Shown here: positions 3,110-46,887 of the stretch, one piece after another
How positions within the stretch are numbered: position 1 is the stretch's first letter
Layout: each line of letters starts with the position of its first letter
Assembly: GCA_019637585.1 (NCBI GenBank)
Contig: JAHBVL010000002.1
Location: 568,023-632,022 of the forward strand
From: Thermomicrobiales bacterium
GTDB lineage: Bacteria; Chloroflexota; Chloroflexia; Thermomicrobiales; UBA6265
Length of the DNA: 64,000 nucleotides
Direction of reading: 5' to 3'
Notes under the pieces: model-generated
Databases searched by the model: none
What the model saw: the letters and a program-made list of their open reading frames with translations, nothing else
What the model was told of the DNA's origin: nothing
Program-made: the position numbers and the translations under genes

Positions 3110-3213
3110 GTCATCCTGAGCGAAGCGAAGGATCTCTCCGTCGTCTCCTGCCACGACCGTCGTCTCCCTGAGAACTGCTGCGGCAGGGGATTCTTCACTT
3201 CGTTCAGAATGAC
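3110..3213. repeat. 104-bp palindromic dispersed repeat, copy A
   Basis: Starts GTCATCCTGAGCGAAGCGAA and ends TTCACTTCGTTCAGAATGAC; the ends are imperfect reverse complements. Copy B at 45568-45671 has exactly the same length and about 90% identity by eye. It lies directly against the trpF stop codon and may form the 3' structure of the trp transcript. Confidence 0.9.
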
Positions 3214-10838: not shown

Positions 10839-12119
10839 ATGGCGTCTCGACGACCATTCCAGCGAATGAGCATCCTCATGTTCACCGCGCTGCTTGCCGT
10901 GATTGTCCTGGCAGCTTGCGGGCGAGATGAAGATGAGAAACCGACGCCAACCCCTTCGATAGACGCGGCTGCCGAGGCGAGTCCTGAAACCGAGGGATCG
11001 CCTGTCACGGAATTGCCGGCAGGCTCGCCAGAGGCTGAGGCGTCGCCAGAAGTCGAAGTTGCCAGTTCTCCCGACACGGCTGCATCGCCGGAGGTCGTGG
11101 AAGTTGCCGGTGAGGCATCGCCGGAAGCCGAAGCTGCGGGCTCCCCGGAAGCGGTTGCATCGCCAGAGGTTGCTGCGGTCGCCAGTGAGGCGTCGCCGGA
11201 GGTCGAAGCGGCAGCTTCTCCTGAAGCCATCGCGTCACCCGAGATTGAGGCAGCAGCGTCGCCTGAAGTCATCTCCGCGCTTGCGTCTCCCGAGGCTGAG
11301 GAAGCCACCCCGTCCATCGAGGCAGCGGGGACCCCGATTGCCACTGCTGATGAAGGCACGCCAGTGGCTGAGGAAGCGTCTCCGGAAGCTTCCCCCGAGG
11401 TGACATCGGAGGGTCCGAGTATCGTCGCCGCGGCGGCGAGCCCGGAGTCGACGGCGACTGAAGAACCCGCCCCGACCGCAACGGAAGTCCCACCGACTGA
11501 GACACCCGAGCCAACGGCGACCGAAGTCCCACCAACGGAGACGCCAGAGCCAACAGCGACCGAAGTTCCACCAACGGAGACGCCAGAGCCAACAGCGACC
11601 GAAGTTCCACCAACGGAGACGCCAGAGCCAACCGCGACTGAGGTTCCGCCAACGGAGACGCCGGAACCGACCGCAACCGAGGTTCCGCCAACCGAAACAC
11701 CGGAGCCGACGGCGACTGAGGTCCCGCCGACCGAGACACCCGAGCCGACGGCGACCGAGGTTCCGCCAACTGAGACGCCGGAACCGACCGCAACCGAGGT
11801 TCCGCCGACCGAGACGCCGGTTCCGACAGCAACGGCTGTGCCGCCGACCAACACGCCGGTACCGACGGCCACAGCAGTGCCTCCAACCGAGACTCCTGAG
11901 CCGACGGCGACGGAGGTTCCACCGACCGAAACACCGGAACCGACAGCCACGTCGTTGCCGACCTGTGTACCGAGCACCGATGGAACGCCGGAAGCGTCGC
12001 CAGAGGCAGGTTCGCCGGAAGCATCTCCAGTGGCGTCACCGATCGCATCTCCGATGGGCAGCCCGGTGGCCACCGATGGGTCGCCTGCTCCGGAAGTCGA
12101 AGTGATCGACTGCATCTAG
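10839..12119 (+). CDS. Repeat-rich secreted lipoprotein
   Basis: A 426-residue protein. Residues 1-26 form a lipoprotein signal with lipobox VLAAC-G, so the mature N-terminus should be a lipidated Cys on the outer face of the membrane. The rest is low complexity: a region of SPEAEAA-type Ser-Pro-Glu-Ala repeats (about residues 45-210), 12 exact-length 13-residue PTATEVPPTETPE repeats (residues about 212-367), then another SPEAS-rich tail. No catalytic domain is seen. Such Thr/Pro-rich stalks are often glycosylated spacers, which is inference. ATG 10839 has GAAGGGA upstream. It is followed by its own terminator. A long antisense open frame is only a by-product of the repeats. Confidence 0.85.
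   Translation: MASRRPFQRMSILMFTALLAVIVLAACGRDEDEKPTPTPSIDAAAEASPETEGSPVTELPAGSPEAEASPEVEVASSPDTAASPEVVEVAGEASPEAEAAGSPEAVASPEVAAVASEASPEVEAAASPEAIASPEIEAAASPEVISALASPEAEEATPSIEAAGTPIATADEGTPVAEEASPEASPEVTSEGPSIVAAAASPESTATEEPAPTATEVPPTETPEPTATEVPPTETPEPTATEVPPTETPEPTATEVPPTETPEPTATEVPPTETPEPTATEVPPTETPEPTATEVPPTETPEPTATEVPPTETPEPTATEVPPTETPVPTATAVPPTNTPVPTATAVPPTETPEPTATEVPPTETPEPTATSLPTCVPSTDGTPEASPEAGSPEASPVASPIASPMGSPVATDGSPAPEVEVIDCI
11472..11939 (+). repeat. Twelve tandem 39-bp repeats in lipoprotein gene
   Basis: Twelve units of 39 bp encode the 13-residue unit PTATEVPPTETPE. Units 9 and 10 vary (VPTATAVPPTNTP type). Synonymous differences between units show the array is not newly expanded, although it should still be prone to slippage. 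Confidence 0.92.
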
Positions 12120-31166: not shown

Positions 31167-31264
31167 GTTGCGGTCTCCTCAGTGACCAACCGACAAGCAG
31201 ACTCCATTATAGAACCCCCATCCGCAGGGAATGGTTCCGGTGGGGCGAGGCGGGCCGGCAACAC

Positions 31265-31571
31265 GTAGCGGCAACGCCTGCGTTGCCCCCCGACGGGCGA
31301 GGCGGGCCTCGCCGCTACACCGAACCAGCAAGACATCGCGGCAGCCAGATCGGCAAAATGTAGCCGCAACGCCTGCGTTGCCCCCCGACGGGCGAGGCGG
31401 GCCTCGCCGCTACACCGAACCAGCATGACATCGCGGCAGCCAGATCGGCAAAATGTAGCGGCAACGCCTGCGTTGCCCCCGACGGGCGAGGCAGGCCTCG
31501 CCGCTACACCGAACCAGCAAGACATCGCGGCAGCCAGATCGGCAAAATGTAGCGGCAACGCCTGCGTTGCT
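31265..31571. repeat. 95-bp tandem repeat array (3.2 copies)
   Basis: Units begin GTAGCGGCAACGCC at 31265, 31360, 31455 and 31549; the spacing is 95, 95 and 94 bp, with only single-base differences. Each unit holds GGCAACGC-CT-GCGTTGCC, then GGCGAGGC-G-GGCCTCGCC, all enclosed by GTAGCGGC...GCCGCTAC, followed by a unique linker containing AACCAGCA. The array fills the roughly 420-bp gap between clpB and the small membrane protein gene; nothing else was found there. Confidence 0.93.
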
Positions 31572-31584
31572 CGGCACCCCGGGG

Positions 31585-34188
31585 CTACGCCACGATCGGG
31601 GCTTCGGTCAGCTCGGCGTGGAACGTGAGCTGTCCATCCTGCTCGTCGACGATCACGACTTCGCCTTCGGCGATCTCGCCGCCGATCAACTTCATCGACA
31701 GCGGATCGAGCACCTGTTTCTGGATAACGCGCTTCAGTGGCCGCGCTCCGTAGACCGGGTCATATCCCAGCCTGGCAATCAGCGTCTTCGCCGCCGGCGT
31801 GATCGTCAGCGCGATATTGCGGTCGGTCAGCCGGTCGGAAACCCGATTCAGCTGAATCTCCACGATTTCGCCCAGCTCTTCCCGAGTCAATGGCGTGAAG
31901 ATGACGATCTCGTCGATCCGGTTGAGGAACTCCGGCCGGAACTCCGACCGCAGCACATCCATCACCTCTGTTCGCATCTCATCTTCGTTTCCGGCCAGCG
32001 CCGCGATCGATGCCGAACCAAGATTGCTGGTCATGATGACCACGGTGTTGCGAAAGTCGACGGTACGACCCTGTCCGTCCGTCAGGCGGCCATCATCCAG
32101 CAACTGCAGCAGGACGTTGAACACATCGGGGTGTGCTTTCTCGATCTCGTCGAGCAGAATCACGCTGTAGGGACGCCGGCGCGCCGCTTCGGTCAGCTGT
32201 CCGCCTTCCTCGTAACCGATGTATCCCGGAGGCGCGCCAATCAGGCGGCTGACCGAGTGCTTCTCCATGTACTCCGACATGTCGATGCGGATCATCGCCT
32301 CTTCTTCATCGAAAAGAACTTCGGCCAGGGCACGGGCCAGCTCGGTTTTGCCAACGCCGGTCGGACCCAGGAAGAGGAAGCTGCCGATCGGTTTGTTCGG
32401 ATCGGAAAGCCCGGCGCGTGACCGCCGGATCGCCGAGGCGACGGCATCCACCGCTTCGTCCTGACCGACAACGCGGTCATGCAGACGTTCTTCCAGATGG
32501 AGGAGTTTTTCGATTTCCCCTTCCATCATCCGGGAAACCGGCACACCGGTCCAGCGACTCACCACTTCAGCGATATCGTCGGCATCGACCTCCTCTTTGA
32601 GAAGCTTGCCCGCCTCCTGCAATTCGGCCAGATGGCGCTCTGCGTCGGCGATCTGCTTCTCCAGCTGGACCTGCTTGCCATACTGCAGCTCGGCCGCCTT
32701 GTTCAGGTCGTAGCTTCGCTGCGCCTGTTCGATTTCGAGGCGAGTCTGATCGAGCTCGTTCCGCAGCTCGGCAATGGTCTGCAGGGAGGTTTTCTCCTGC
32801 TCCCACTTGCTGCGCAGCGCGTTGCGTTCTTCTTTCAGATCCGCGAGCTCGGCTTCGATACCATCGAGGCGCTGTTTGCTGGCGTCGTCCTTCTCCTTGC
32901 GCAACGCTTCGCGCTCGATTTCGAGCTGCATGATGCGCCGCTCGATCTCGTCCAGCTCGACCGGCATGGAGGTGATCTCCATCCGCAACCCTGACGCAGC
33001 TTCGTCGACCAGGTCGATCGCCTTGTCCGGCAGGAAACGATCGGAGATATAGCGATTGGAGAGCACCGCCGCCGCAACCAACGCCGCATCGAGGATCTTC
33101 ACGTTGTGATGAACCTCGTAGCGTTCCCGCAGACCGCGCAGGATCGAGATCGTATCCTCGACCGATGGTTCGCCGACCATCACCGGCTGGAAGCGGCGTT
33201 CGAGCGCCGCATCCTTTTCGATGTACTTGCGGTACTCATCGAGAGTCGTGGCGCCGATCGCGTTCAACTCGCCACGAGCCAGCATCGGCTTGAGCAGATT
33301 GGCGGCATCCATCGACCCTTCCGCCTTGCCGGCGCCAACGACCGTGTGGAGCTCGTCGATGAAGAGGATGATCTGACCTTCCGCCTGTTCGATCTCTTTC
33401 AAAACCGCTTTCAGCCGTTCCTCGAACTCTCCCCTGAACTTCGCACCGGCGATCAACGCTCCCATGTCGAGCGCAACGACCTTCTTGTCCTTCAGCCCCT
33501 CGGGGACATCACCCCGCACAATGCGCTGGGCCAGACCTTCGGCGATAGCGGTTTTGCCAACGCCCGGTTCACCGATCAGCACGGGGTTGTTCTTCGTCCG
33601 GCGGGAAAGAACCTGAATGACGCGGCGGATCTCCTCGTCGCGACCGATCACCGGATCGAGCTTGCCGCGGTCGGCGAGTTCGGTCAGATCTCGTCCATAT
33701 TTCTCCAGCGCCTGGTATTTGTCCTCGGGATTCTGGTCGGTCACCCGCTGCCCTCCCCGGATCTCCTTCAATGTTTCCCGCACGGCATCCACCGTCGCGC
33801 CAGCGCCGCGCAGGAGAGTGGCGGCCGTGCTGTTTCCCTCCAGAATGCCCAGCAGGAGGTGTTCAGCGCTCAGATACTCGTCTCCGAACTGCTGAGCCGC
33901 GCGCTCGGCGGCATCGAGCGCCGACTGCATGGATGGCGCCACCCGGGCATCAGATTCGTACTGCAACCGGGGCAGCGCCTCGACCGCGCTGGCGAGCTGC
34001 CGGTCGATGTCCGACGGGCGGATACCGAGCTTCTGCAGAACCTGCGGAACAACGCCATTCTCCTGGGCAATCAGCGCCTGCAGGAGCAGCTCAGGCTCGA
34101 GCTGGGCCAGTCGCTTTTCTCTGGTGGTTCGCTGAGCAGCCAGGATGGCCTGTTGCGCTTTTTCGGTGAATCCCTGTGTGTGTGCCAT
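31585..34188 (-). CDS. clpB: ATP-dependent chaperone ClpB
   Basis: A full-length 867-residue ClpB disaggregase. The N-domain ([13 protein letters not shown]) is followed by AAA1 with [15 protein letters not shown] and the arginine-finger region ALERRFQPV. The middle coiled coil (about residues 410-525) is rich in E/K/R/Q, consistent with ClpB rather than ClpA or ClpC. AAA2 has [16 protein letters not shown] and [16 protein letters not shown]. No ClpP-binding loop is expected. AAGGA lies about 9 bases before ATG. The gene follows hspR by 61 bases and should be repressed by it. Confidence 0.97.
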
Positions 34189-35532: not shown

Positions 35533-35825
35533 TAGCCCGGATTATTCAATAGGGTCTTGGCGGTGATGACTTGTGACCACGCTTCGCGTCGTAGCGGCGA
35601 TCCCTTGTGGTCGCCGATGGCCCGGAGGGCCATAAACTGCCGCCATATGCAACGTCGTTGGCAATGGACGGCAATTGTGGCTCCACTCCGCTTCGCTCCG
35701 TTCCGCCACCGGCGAGGACAAGCCATCGCCGCTACGCCGGTTTGGGGACGCGCTCACTTCCCTATCCATGATGATGAGATCGCTGTCCAAGGTCGTTTTT
35801 GTCGCCCGATGAATGATTCGGGTTG
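35533..35825. mobile_element. MITE-like nested palindromic element 1
   Basis: A 293-bp non-coding element. The left end TAGCCCGGATTATTCA matches the reverse complement of the right end (TGAATGATTCGGGTTG) at 12 of 16 positions. Inside lies a second palindrome with arms GTAGCGGCGAT (35591-35601) and ATCGCCGCTAC (35725-35735). The outer ends are shared with element 2 at 41360-41623, including about 38 bp next to the right end. No transposase is encoded. Confidence 0.75.
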
Positions 35826-41362: not shown

Positions 41363-41623
41363 CCCAGATTTTCCAGCAGGACACCCCTCTGTGTTTGTCT
41401 GTAGTCGCAGACCCCCGTGTCTGCTTTCTCAGGGGGCACAACGCATCCACCGGCGGCGGCTTCTCGTCACTTGGCGATGCGGGGTCGCTGTTCTTGCGCA
41501 TGCGGATCGTGGCGAGTGATCGCACCGTCTCCCATACGAGTGCAGACACGGGGGTCTGCGGCTACCTGGCGATGAGATCGCGGTCAAGGATCGTGTTTAT
41601 CGCCTGATGAATAATCCGGGCTA
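41360..41623. mobile_element. MITE-like nested palindromic element 2
   Basis: A 264-bp element. The left end TAGCCCAGATTTTCCA and the right end TGAATAATCCGGGCTA are inverted repeats (13 of 16). Inside, GTAGTCGCAGACCC... at 41401-41424 pairs with 41542-41565 at 23 of 24 positions, giving a second enclosed palindrome. The right-terminal 38 bp resembles element 1 at 35533-35825. It is non-coding and fills the gap after the MFS gene. Confidence 0.8.
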
Positions 41624-43001: not shown

Positions 43002-44648
43002 ATGACGACCGAAACCCTCACCTCCACCCTTCCCGCCACGGCCACCGGCGCCGAGGCGGTGATCCGGACCCTCGAAGCCAACGATGTCGACGTCCTTTTC
43101 GGCATCCCCGGCGTCCACACGCTGGCGCTCTACGATGCCCTGCGCGACTCTTCGATCCGCCACGTGCTGGCCCGCCACGAACAGGGTGTCGGATTCATGA
43201 CCGACGGGTACGCGCGGGTCTCCGGCAAAGCGGGCGTGGCCCTGGTGATCACCGGTCCCGGGGTGACGAATCTGGCGACGGCGCTGGGAGAGGCGTATAC
43301 CGACTCCTCCCCGATTCTGGCGATTTCCTCGAACGTCGAACGAGCCTGGATCGACGACATGCGAGGCAACCTGCACGACCTCAAAGACCAGCTCGGCGTC
43401 ACGGCCGCTGTGACCAAATGGAATGGCCGGGCGATGAGCGCGTCGAGCGCCGGATCGCTTGTGGAAACTGCCTTCTGGCACCTCAGAACGGGACGTCCCC
43501 GCCCAGTGCATGTCGAGTTCCCGCTCGATGTGCTCGACGAACCACTCGGACAGGAGACGCCGGTCGCCTCCATCCAGCCAGGTCGACTGGCGCCCGGCAT
43601 GGCCGAGATCAACGCCGCGGCCGAAGCGATCGAGCGGTCCCACCGCCCGGTTCTCTACTGCGGTGGAGGCGCTGTGTCGTCAGGAGCCTCAGCCGCCGTT
43701 ACCCAACTGGCCGAACGACTCGGCGCGCCGGTGATCACGTCGATCATGGGGAAGGGAGCGATTCGGGAGGACCATCCCCTCTCGCTCGGCGCTCTCTGGA
43801 GCAACGGCAACGCGGTCGACGAGGTGCTTCGCCAGTCGGACTGCCTGATCGTGATTGGATCGAAGCTCGGCTACCAGGAGACTGGGCTGAACCTGCCGAT
43901 TCCCGGCACCCTGATCAGAATCGACATCGATCCCCGCGAAATGCATCTCAACGCCCGCCCCGACATCGCAATCGAGGCCGATGCCAGGTTGAGTACCGAG
44001 GCGCTGCTCGAACGACTAGGCGACATCGATCGAGGCACGACCGGATTCGGAGCCGATGCGATCACGTCGGCGCGACAGCGGGCCGAGGCGAGCGCCTATG
44101 GGGCCGACCGCCGGGCGCTGGTCGATGCGCTTCGCCGCGCGATTCCGCGCGATGGCATTTTGAGCACCGACATGACGCAGCTCGCCTATGTGGCGACCTA
44201 CCTCTACCCCGTTTACGAACCGCGCACATTCCTCTTTCCGATGGGCTACGGCACACTCGGGTTTGCGCTCCCTGCTGCCATCGGCGCGAAAATCGCCCGG
44301 CCGGAAGCAACTGTCGTGGCGATGGTGGGGGATGGTGGATTCCAGTACACCATGGGCGAACTCGGGTGTGCGGTCCAGGAGCGCCTCGGGGTCCCGATCG
44401 TCATCTTCAACGATTCGACCTATTCCGCGGTCAAGTCGTCGCAGGAACGGACACGCGGCGGCCGCTACATCGGCGTCGATCTGGTCAATCCCGATTACGT
44501 CGAGCTGGCAAGAGCCTACGGTATTCCCGGAGTGCGGGTCGAAACACCAGATGCCCTGGAACGAGAAGTCCGACTGGCAGCAGACCGCGACCTGCCGACC
44601 ATCATCGACGTACCGATCCCTGGCTGGGTGTCAACTCCGGATCACTAG
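43002..44648 (+). CDS. Thiamine-diphosphate-dependent enzyme, acetolactate-synthase-like
   Basis: A 548-residue TPP enzyme of the acetolactate synthase/2-oxoacid decarboxylase group. The N-terminal pyrimidine domain holds RHEQGVGFMTDGYARVSGK with the catalytic Glu; the C-terminal domain has MVGDGGFQYTMGELG and NDSTYSAVK, the Mg-TPP motif. There is no adjacent regulatory subunit (ilvN) and no ketol-acid reductoisomerase, so anabolic IlvB is less likely. The HEQGxGFM-GYARVSGK region resembles 5-guanidino-2-oxopentanoate decarboxylase-type enzymes. AAGGAA precedes ATG 43002. The last 47 bases overlap the convergent membrane-protein gene. Confidence 0.85.
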   Translation: MTTETLTSTLPATATGAEAVIRTLEANDVDVLFGIPGVHTLALYDALRDSSIRHVLARHEQGVGFMTDGYARVSGKAGVALVITGPGVTNLATALGEAYTDSSPILAISSNVERAWIDDMRGNLHDLKDQLGVTAAVTKWNGRAMSASSAGSLVETAFWHLRTGRPRPVHVEFPLDVLDEPLGQETPVASIQPGRLAPGMAEINAAAEAIERSHRPVLYCGGGAVSSGASAAVTQLAERLGAPVITSIMGKGAIREDHPLSLGALWSNGNAVDEVLRQSDCLIVIGSKLGYQETGLNLPIPGTLIRIDIDPREMHLNARPDIAIEADARLSTEALLERLGDIDRGTTGFGADAITSARQRAEASAYGADRRALVDALRRAIPRDGILSTDMTQLAYVATYLYPVYEPRTFLFPMGYGTLGFALPAAIGAKIARPEATVVAMVGDGGFQYTMGELGCAVQERLGVPIVIFNDSTYSAVKSSQERTRGGRYIGVDLVNPDYVELARAYGIPGVRVETPDALEREVRLAADRDLPTIIDVPIPGWVSTPDH

Positions 44649-46887
44649 GGGCAAGGCGCCGGCTGGACAGCAGCCACCGCTGCGGAACCAGCAACCACGC
44701 GACGCCGAGCAGACCGGCCACCAGCCCCAGCCGGCTCAGCCAGTCCCAGACGTCGGTGCGGTATGTCATGACGACCTTTGTACCGGGGTCGTCGCCGGTG
44801 ACAACCATGTAGCCCCGCTCATCCTTCTCGATCGAGGCGGCGTGGCCATCAATGGTCGCTTCCCAGCGTGGATACCAGTTGTGCCGGACGGTGAACGTGC
44901 TGGCTGGAGACCCGGTGCTGCCGGCAATCTGCCGGTCGTTGGCGGTAACATCCAGCTGCTGATCGTCATCGGTGGTGACGATCGTGACCGGGTCGTTCAC
45001 CAGAAAGATCGACCAAAGCCCGGCCCGCTCCAGCGTCAGCAAATCTGACGCGGCCGCGGCCGGAGCCGCTTCTCCAGTCACGATGACCGCGCCAATGCCA
45101 TGTTGCCGAAGGTATGCGGCATCGAGCGCCGATGCGTCGTCGTCGTAGGCATGCGACGTTTCGGGGTCGTAGGCGCCGTAGTGGTCGGTTTGCCAGTACC
45201 AGAGCCAGTCATCGTAGAAGAAGCGCCGGTCACTCCACTGTGGCGACCAGAGTTGATCGTGCCACGAAACAGCCGTTCCCAGCACCAGAATCGCGGTGCC
45301 GGGTGGAGCCGTCTCGTCGGCCAGCCTCACCTGCGCTTCCAGTTCGGCAATAGCCGCGGACGCCGTCGTCACCAGTCCATCGGCCGCCCGGTCGCTCTCT
45401 GGAATGCCCGGCAGCCAGGCGCCGACATAGCCGGCCAGGAAGAGGAGCGCTGTCACGGCCATGACCGCATCTGCGAAGACACCATGGCTTTCTGGGAGTC
45501 GGTCAGTGCTACCGTCATCCTGAACGAATATGCCTGGGACGGCACCCGTGCCGCGTGAAAAGGCACCGTCATCCTGAACGAAGTGAAGGATCTCTCCGTC
45601 GTCTCCCGCCACGACCGTCGTCTCCCTGGAAACTGCTGCGGCAGGAGATCCTTCGCTGCGCTCAGGATGACGGTACCCTTCATGCCGCACTAGTGCCGGC
45701 TCCCGGCTTGTTGGCTCAGAATGACGGGTCCGTGTGAGGAGGACGTCGACAGTCGCCCAGACCCCGTAGGCCGCTAGGTAGATGACGAGCAGACGCTGAA
45801 AGGGCATCAGTCGCGTGGCCTCGAGCTGGCTGACCAGATTCGCCGCGCTCGTTGAAAGAACCGTCGACGCGGTTCCCGCCACATAAAGCGCCAGGACGAT
45901 CAACACCGTCCGGCCGCCATCATCCTCTCGCCTCAGGATCGCCGCCAGCGCACCAACAACCGCCAGCACCATCGCCGGCGTCGAGACCGCCTGCAGACTC
46001 GAGCGCCAGTACTCTCCCAGATCGGCATACGAGGAGTACCGAACGAATACGTAGAGATCACCAAAGCGCATCAATGCTCCAGCCAGGGGAGCCACCAGGA
46101 GGAACGTGAGCAGAACGATCTCGATCGAGCGCTTGCCGATGGTGCGAGCGGATCGAGCGGTCGGGTTGTCGATCAGTGCAGCCAGTCCGCACCCGACCAG
46201 AATGGCGGCCAATGGCAACACCGACCGGACATTGGTGTAGACCGCAATCGCCGCGACAATCGCTCCAGCCGCCAGCAACCACCGGCTGGCGTCGCGCAGA
46301 TAGCCGCGGTGTAGCGCCAGGACTAATGGCAGGAGCGCTGCCGACGCGACATTGGTCAGCAATCCCCATTCGAGGAGCTCCATGGCGCCGCCCGACCACC
46401 ACCAGCCCCGCACGCAGACGTGCATCACGATCGCAAGGACCGGCACGCTCCACGGCAGACGCCCGAATCGAGCCAGCGCCGCAAACCCCACAACCGGGAG
46501 GAGAAACACACCGATGACCACCAGTTTGTGCACGACCATGATCGGCCAGATACCCAGGGTCACCGCCCAGACGATGACCTCGATCCATGCCGCTCCCAGG
46601 GGATAGAACTCGACCGGGTACCCGCCCTGATGGTTGCCGATCCAGCGGAGGAGCTCGCCATCGGCGAGCGAGCGGCGCAGGATCTCCGCCCGCGTGGCGT
46701 GGAAGGGGTGGTCGACCGTGGCGAAAGTGTTGGGAAAGCGCAGCGACGATCCATCCGGCAGGGTGACTGTCGCCCACAGATCGAACCCACCGAGTCGCCA
46801 GAACGTCCAAAGCGCAAAGAGCAGGAAGAACCCGAGCCAGAACACCCCAGCCAGGCGGCGAGTCGAAGCGCGCTCCTGGGAGTCCAT
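44602..46887 (-). CDS. Polytopic membrane protein, GT-C/YfhO-like, with inserted repeat
   Basis: A 761-residue membrane protein with roughly 11-12 TM helices in the first 530 residues and a large outer C-terminal domain ending in a last helix (LSRLGLVAGLLGVAWLLVP). FPNTFATVDHPFHATRAEIL and NHQGGYPVEFYPLG fit the first outer loop of GT-C-type glycosyltransferases; FTVRHNWYPRWEATIDG resembles YfhO-type proteins. Residues about 388-460 are translated from dispersed repeat DNA (including RHPERSEGS and ILHFVQDDG) and lie between two TM helices. It is the last gene of the glycan cluster, with one-base overlap (TGATG) to the upstream gene. Confidence 0.75.
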   Translation of the reverse strand: MDSQERASTRRLAGVFWLGFFLLFALWTFWRLGGFDLWATVTLPDGSSLRFPNTFATVDHPFHATRAEILRRSLADGELLRWIGNHQGGYPVEFYPLGAAWIEVIVWAVTLGIWPIMVVHKLVVIGVFLLPVVGFAALARFGRLPWSVPVLAIVMHVCVRGWWWSGGAMELLEWGLLTNVASAALLPLVLALHRGYLRDASRWLLAAGAIVAAIAVYTNVRSVLPLAAILVGCGLAALIDNPTARSARTIGKRSIEIVLLTFLLVAPLAGALMRFGDLYVFVRYSSYADLGEYWRSSLQAVSTPAMVLAVVGALAAILRREDDGGRTVLIVLALYVAGTASTVLSTSAANLVSQLEATRLMPFQRLLVIYLAAYGVWATVDVLLTRTRHSEPTSREPALVRHEGYRHPERSEGSPAAAVSRETTVVAGDDGEILHFVQDDGAFSRGTGAVPGIFVQDDGSTDRLPESHGVFADAVMAVTALLFLAGYVGAWLPGIPESDRAADGLVTTASAAIAELEAQVRLADETAPPGTAILVLGTAVSWHDQLWSPQWSDRRFFYDDWLWYWQTDHYGAYDPETSHAYDDDASALDAAYLRQHGIGAVIVTGEAAPAAAASDLLTLERAGLWSIFLVNDPVTIVTTDDDQQLDVTANDRQIAGSTGSPASTFTVRHNWYPRWEATIDGHAASIEKDERGYMVVTGDDPGTKVVMTYRTDVWDWLSRLGLVAGLLGVAWLLVPQRWLLSSRRLAPSDPELTPSQGSVRR
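45568..45671. repeat. 104-bp palindromic dispersed repeat, copy B, inside a gene
   Basis: The same length as copy A at 3110-3213 and about 90% identical, with ends GTCATCCTGAACGAAG and CTGCGCTCAGGATGAC. Fragments of the same family flank it: CCGTCATCCTGAACGAA near 45512 and CTCAGAATGACGG near 45715. The composite is read in frame by the membrane-protein gene. Confidence 0.92.

Follow-up and report, generated by a model that had tools for sequence, protein, structure and literature searches.

An in-frame REP-type palindromic insertion in a loop of a GT-C-fold membrane glycosyltransferase from a Thermomicrobiales bacterium

Introduction

CGTC-tagged REPs are short hairpins headed by CGTC or TGTC with A-T pairs at the stem base; they are dispersed, often arranged in inverted pairs, mostly intergenic and sometimes translated, and no dedicated transposase is found nearby (PMC3733652). 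Repair genes, uvrA among them, harbour some of the intragenic, translated copies (Di Nocera et al. 2013, PMC3733652). The element described here shares the head, the A-T pairs, the dispersal in often inverted pairs, the mostly intergenic location with some translated copies and the absence of a dedicated transposase nearby. It differs from CGTC REPs in its outward-pointing heads, in a conserved 52-bp spacer between the paired units and in an accessory module.

Other palindromes are also translated. As the first report on RPEs (Ogata 2000) is recounted in PMC2229807 and PMC10969869, these elements were translated in frame in 19 Rickettsia genes, and the gmk product carrying an RPE stays active. 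According to the same accounts, RPEs are palindromes of 100-150 bp in unrelated genes, and nearly half of their copies are genic. The likeness to our element is in the way of working, as both are palindromes that stay open in frame inside otherwise conserved genes (here the host gene and a PfkB kinase), but the taxon is different here and about 2 of 39 copies are genic. Like a REPIN (PMC3116915), the core of our element consists of two inverted REPs and a spacer that behave as one unit; unlike in the REPIN/RAYT system, it is not GTAG-headed, and no RAYT flanked by these REPs was found in its own genome or in the relatives examined. Small palindromes whose open frames are fused to host ORFs also occur among MITEs such as ERIC and Correia/Nemis (PMC2229807), but for our element neither terminal inverted repeats of a known IS nor a target duplication could be demonstrated.

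In-frame translated REP and RPE insertions are therefore already published (PMC3733652, PMC2229807, PMC10969869), and the case reported here is a well-resolved example; our literature search found no paper matching the literal repeat or peptide strings. The DNA analysed, hereafter the window, is a stretch of 64,000 nucleotides of contig JAHBVL010000002.1 (positions 568,023 to 632,022) from the genome of a Thermomicrobiales bacterium (3.94 Mb in 33 contigs, 96.6% complete).

Results

A first-pass annotation of the window had proposed that a palindromic repeat lies in frame within a membrane-protein gene. The host ORF (44602-46887, minus strand) indeed runs uninterrupted through the repeat for 761 codons, and the 104-bp core (45568-45671, plus strand) is, as had been stated, 90% identical to an intergenic copy at 3110-3213 (plus strand), which aligns without an accessory module. 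The extent had to be redrawn: the insertion had been placed at 45500-45730 with about 73 residues added, whereas module mapping, orthologue alignment and hairpin z-scores delimited the complete palindromic insert to 45512-45727, which is 216 bp or 72 codons. The two fragments reported to flank the core are present, but flank alignment and module mapping identified them as opposite-orientation copies of the module that follows the core, not as debris.

The order of the insert is module'-core-module, with two 56-bp module copies inverted around the core. Within the core, one 26-nt REP hairpin unit (45568-45593, plus strand) is separated by the 52-bp spacer from an inverted one (45646-45671, minus strand). 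The inverted module copy (45512-45567, minus strand; L003:1445-1500) is 81% identical to the module consensus; the other (45672-45727, plus strand) has the orientation usual for genomic copies and about 90% identity. In most genomic copies the module, 57 bp in length (GGTGCTTTTTCATGCCGCGCTGGTGCCGGCGCCCGGCATGTTGGCTCAGGATGACGG), extends past the second REP, and in two (L025, L067) it is doubled in tandem; in the host-gene copy it stands on both sides of the core in opposite orientations. Compared with the consensus of the other genomic copies (~40), the core shows 97% identity, differing at 3 of 104 bases, and the modules differ by about 10-19%. The match of the core to the consensus suggests that its insertion is probably recent. 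When the window was scanned with the 26-mer allowing ≤3 mismatches, three sites were found (3110, 45568 and, inverted, 45646) against 0.00 expected; Rfam gave no match anywhere in the window.

The two REP hairpins of the core (GTCATYCTGARCGNAGYGAAGRATCT) point their heads outwards and show strong covariation. Among 43 distinct units of the genome, pair 6-22 is C-G (26) or T-A (10) and pair 11-17 is G-C (21) or A-T (19), a level not reached in 5000 permutations. The hairpin can be written as ATYCT - GA - RC - GNA - GY - GA - AGRAT, in which two tandem G-A mismatches separate a five-pair stem from two further pairs and the GNA triloop. An unpaired CGTC/TGTC/CCTC-type head is present, with C or T before GTC in 57 of 70 REP units, and the stem starts with complementary A and T (pair 4-24 is A-T in 33 and pair 5-23 is T-A in 39 of the 43 distinct units). 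Members of the CGTC superfamily have a stem of 8-9 bp and a loop of 4-5 nt, whereas this hairpin has 5 bp, the tandem G-A, 2 bp and a 3-nt loop. Because these sizes are unlike those stated for the four published families (PMC3733652), we call the REP CGTC-like and place it outside them.

The consensus core is free of stop codons in four of six frames. Four or more open frames were also obtained in 153 of 2000 mononucleotide shuffles, so the core exceeds shuffled sequence only modestly. On each REP strand two of the three frames are open, reading HPERSEGS / EILRFAQDD and VILSEAKDL / RSFASLRMT; the peptide stretches encoded by the insert are RHPERSEGSPAAAVSR and ETTVVAGDDGEILHFVQDDGAFSR.

The repeat family has about 40 copies in the genome, mostly intergenic, and the 26-mer has 77 near-matches there (G000). 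By a crude scan of gene context, 5 of 39 copies fell inside coding-like ORFs, and the case is convincing for two of them, namely the host gene and a gene for a PfkB-family sugar kinase (L074:1151-2284, minus strand). In the latter, core plus module adds about 53 codons in frame; matches to PfkB and TIGR04382 are found on either side of the insert, and the remaining kinase continues in frame. The kinase core is ~79-81% identical to the consensus and yet reads through; judged by this lower identity, the insertion is probably older. If 85% of the genome is assumed to be coding, chance would place far more than 2 of the 39 copies in genes; insertion into genes is either avoided or under strong counter-selection.

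The other three coding-like cases were two ORFs of ~100 aa and a region upstream of a UDP-glucose dehydrogenase gene. At the latter (L084:3435-3595), a full core and module lie directly upstream of the gene in a continuous open frame. This copy was rejected as intragenic, since the conserved start of the dehydrogenase comes after the repeat, but an annotator could wrongly extend the enzyme with repeat-encoded residues. For ten more long ORFs that run through or next to repeat copies, Pfam gave no match, and they appear to be antisense or spurious; the same holds for a 704-aa open frame on C31 and for the frames through copies in other family members.

The window contains further repeats. At 31256-31571, directly downstream of a clpB-like gene (31585-34188, minus strand), three tandem 95-bp units of GTAGCGGC... 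hairpins form a GTAG-type REP array. A 39-bp tandem repeat occurs in eleven copies at 11374-11997 (13 codons per unit if coding). Two more pairs of inverted repeats, which have GTAG close to the outer ends, are located at 35587-35739 and 41401-41565 and apparently represent another palindromic repeat family of this genome.

Beyond this genome, a scan of named genomes with a 37-mer gave no match, and the 26-mer was therefore used. It is present in 26 of 61 genomes, and the reversed control pattern had no match. Exact copies were found in at least 118 contigs, mostly MAGs, from Bacteroidota, Bacillota, Acidobacteriota, Nitrospirota, Planctomycetota, Gemmatimonadota, Alphaproteobacteria, Chloroflexota and others. 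Some lie in frame inside genes, namely uvrA (L114), mutS (L160), sufS (L123), atpH (L112) and an NRPS gene (L198). Two of these five are DNA-repair genes.

The host protein has no Pfam family at its threshold. An AlphaFold model built with 27 sequences (mean pLDDT 84.8, pTM 0.86) shows the multi-TM core and C-terminal soluble domain of a GT-C fold, and the best PDB matches found with Foldseek were AftD (E 4e-6), ArnT (1e-4) and AglB (2e-4), all GT-C glycosyltransferases. The insert occupies residues ~387-459. In the model, residues 391-460 have block mean pLDDT values of 40-53 and are positioned between confident helices at 357-389 and 466-488; the insert is thus modelled as a disordered linker between helices, in agreement with the first-pass placement in a loop between TM helices. 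The parts of the protein on either side of the insert are modelled with high confidence and retain the family-invariant residues. In GT-C enzymes the soluble C-terminal domain lies outside the cytoplasm, so the loop before the preceding helix should be cytoplasmic. Basic residues in the short orthologous loops and the basic C terminus both agree with this assignment. The insert is predicted to add a flexible linker of 72 residues on the cytoplasmic side. A convergent acetolactate-synthase-like gene (43002-44648, plus strand) and the host gene share 47 bp at their 3' ends (44602-44648).

The host protein is present in 30 of the 61 genomes searched, its own included. The alignment comprised 26 orthologues, drawn from the same family and order, that match on both sides of the insert. 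The first-pass annotation would have been refuted by orthologues all carrying the same segment; none of the 26 carries it. In the stretch bounded by host residues 370 and 500, which counts 131 residues in the host, 24 orthologues have 50-67 and the other two 87 and 100.

In the orthologue of G015 (L049; another genus), ~45 extra residues in the loop come from a 133-bp inverted repeat (DNA z -6.05) with 25 BLAST matches in G015, itself included. The other copies mostly start with GTAGGG and end with CCCTAC. By its sequence, this repeat is a dispersed GTAG-type REP pair unrelated to the CGTC-like element of the host. In the orthologue of G012 (L045; another genus), ~30 extra loop residues contain the perfect palindrome GGCCGTCACCCCG-CTA-CGGGGTGACGGCC; this one was rejected as a dispersed repeat, being single-copy in G012. 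Both palindromes lie in the loop after host residue 386. Palindromes have thus enlarged one loop independently at least twice, and perhaps a third time, in a small sample for which we give no probability.

Discussion

The repeat belongs to a dispersed family, is missing from the orthologues, has a length that is a multiple of three, and is open in frame on both sides. We conclude that a GT-C glycosyltransferase gene very probably acquired, in the part encoding the last cytoplasmic loop, a non-autonomous REP-type element (paired CGTC-like REP hairpins plus spacer and accessory modules), which is tolerated there as a near-neutral addition. The repeat peptide would be translated and most likely has no selected function.

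The element may have arrived by mobilisation in trans (transposition) or by copying through a hairpin intermediate. The genome has six Y1_Tnp genes, and no REP was found within 1.5 kb of the Y1_Tnp loci examined. A role of a RAYT transposase is unsupported, as no RAYT examined carries these REPs. Some REP-rich relatives (G013, G017 and G028, two of which are incomplete genomes) gave no Y1_Tnp match, in line with the literature, where CGTC REPs are said to have no dedicated transposase. With regard to a MITE origin, palindromic ends exist, but no parent transposon was identified, and no close relative was found with an empty site near enough for nucleotide comparison. Persistence of the element would be favoured by the four stop-free frames of its core, a hydrophilic and disordered peptide, and a loop that tolerates length changes. 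Given these three properties, we propose that the enzyme stays functional and that the insertion is close to neutral.

The whole 216-bp insert folds as a single long hairpin (DNA z -8.6, RNA z -13.2; RNA folding energy -135 kcal/mol), and none of 200 shuffles was as stable. A structure of this strength could act as an mRNA hairpin or as extruded DNA that attenuates transcription or recruits RNase III or gyrase, with putative down-regulation of the gene, and regulatory functions of REPs have been proposed (PMC3733652). Other copies, however, are mostly intergenic, and there is no sign of selection for a position inside genes, which makes such a role improbable. Somewhat less credible still is inactivation of the enzyme by the insertion, the open frame being a lucky leftover. 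Because the core insertion looks recent, there may have been too little time for stops to arise; but the insert is a multiple of three in length and open in frame, both halves of the protein fold with high confidence and keep family-invariant residues, and even the diverged pfkB core still reads through.

GC by codon position is 0.76/0.53/0.54 in the insert vs 0.67/0.50/0.77 in the remaining gene, so the codon composition of the insert is so far not adjusted to the host gene. This speaks, together with a core that is nearly the genomic consensus, against a linker kept by selection because it regulates the glycosyltransferase or binds a partner. All 72 codons are open and the same loop was enlarged independently in two other genera, as such a use would have it, but the insert is predicted to be disordered, is missing from all other aligned orthologues and encodes whatever the repeat encodes in that frame; we therefore consider exaptation very unlikely. 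Dispersed repeats are classic sites of misassembly, yet an assembly or binning artefact, in which reads of another copy were stitched into the gene, hardly deserves belief when both flanks are the same gene in correct order and frame on a 705-kb contig and the inverted double-module layout was not seen in the other copies examined.

With a tolerated, near-neutral REP-type insertion as the preferred reading, a broader proposal may be put forward tentatively, and with more doubt than confidence: that unrelated REP-type palindromes (CGTC-like here, GTAG-type in G015 and a further one in G012) land again and again in the last cytoplasmic loop of this glycosyltransferase family and repeatedly provide it with new sequence, and that a near-identical multi-phylum REP decorates genes across bacteria in the same tolerated frames. 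We found no description of the repeated enlargement of one loop in one gene family by differing palindromes, and this aspect is new here; a comparable coincidence, in recB from two species of Xanthomonas, is reported by Di Nocera et al. (2013, PMC3733652).

For annotators, peptides of the HPERSEGS / ILRFAQDD type signify a translated repeat and not a conserved domain. A single 26-bp REP sequence is exactly common to many phyla and is found in frame within uvrA, mutS and other genes. At the glycosyltransferase gene, the passage from non-coding repeat to protein can be traced stepwise, through the modules, the insert-free orthologues, the predicted disorder and the enlargement of the same loop by other palindromes. 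The old question of whether such insertions are merely tolerated or put to use thereby becomes testable.
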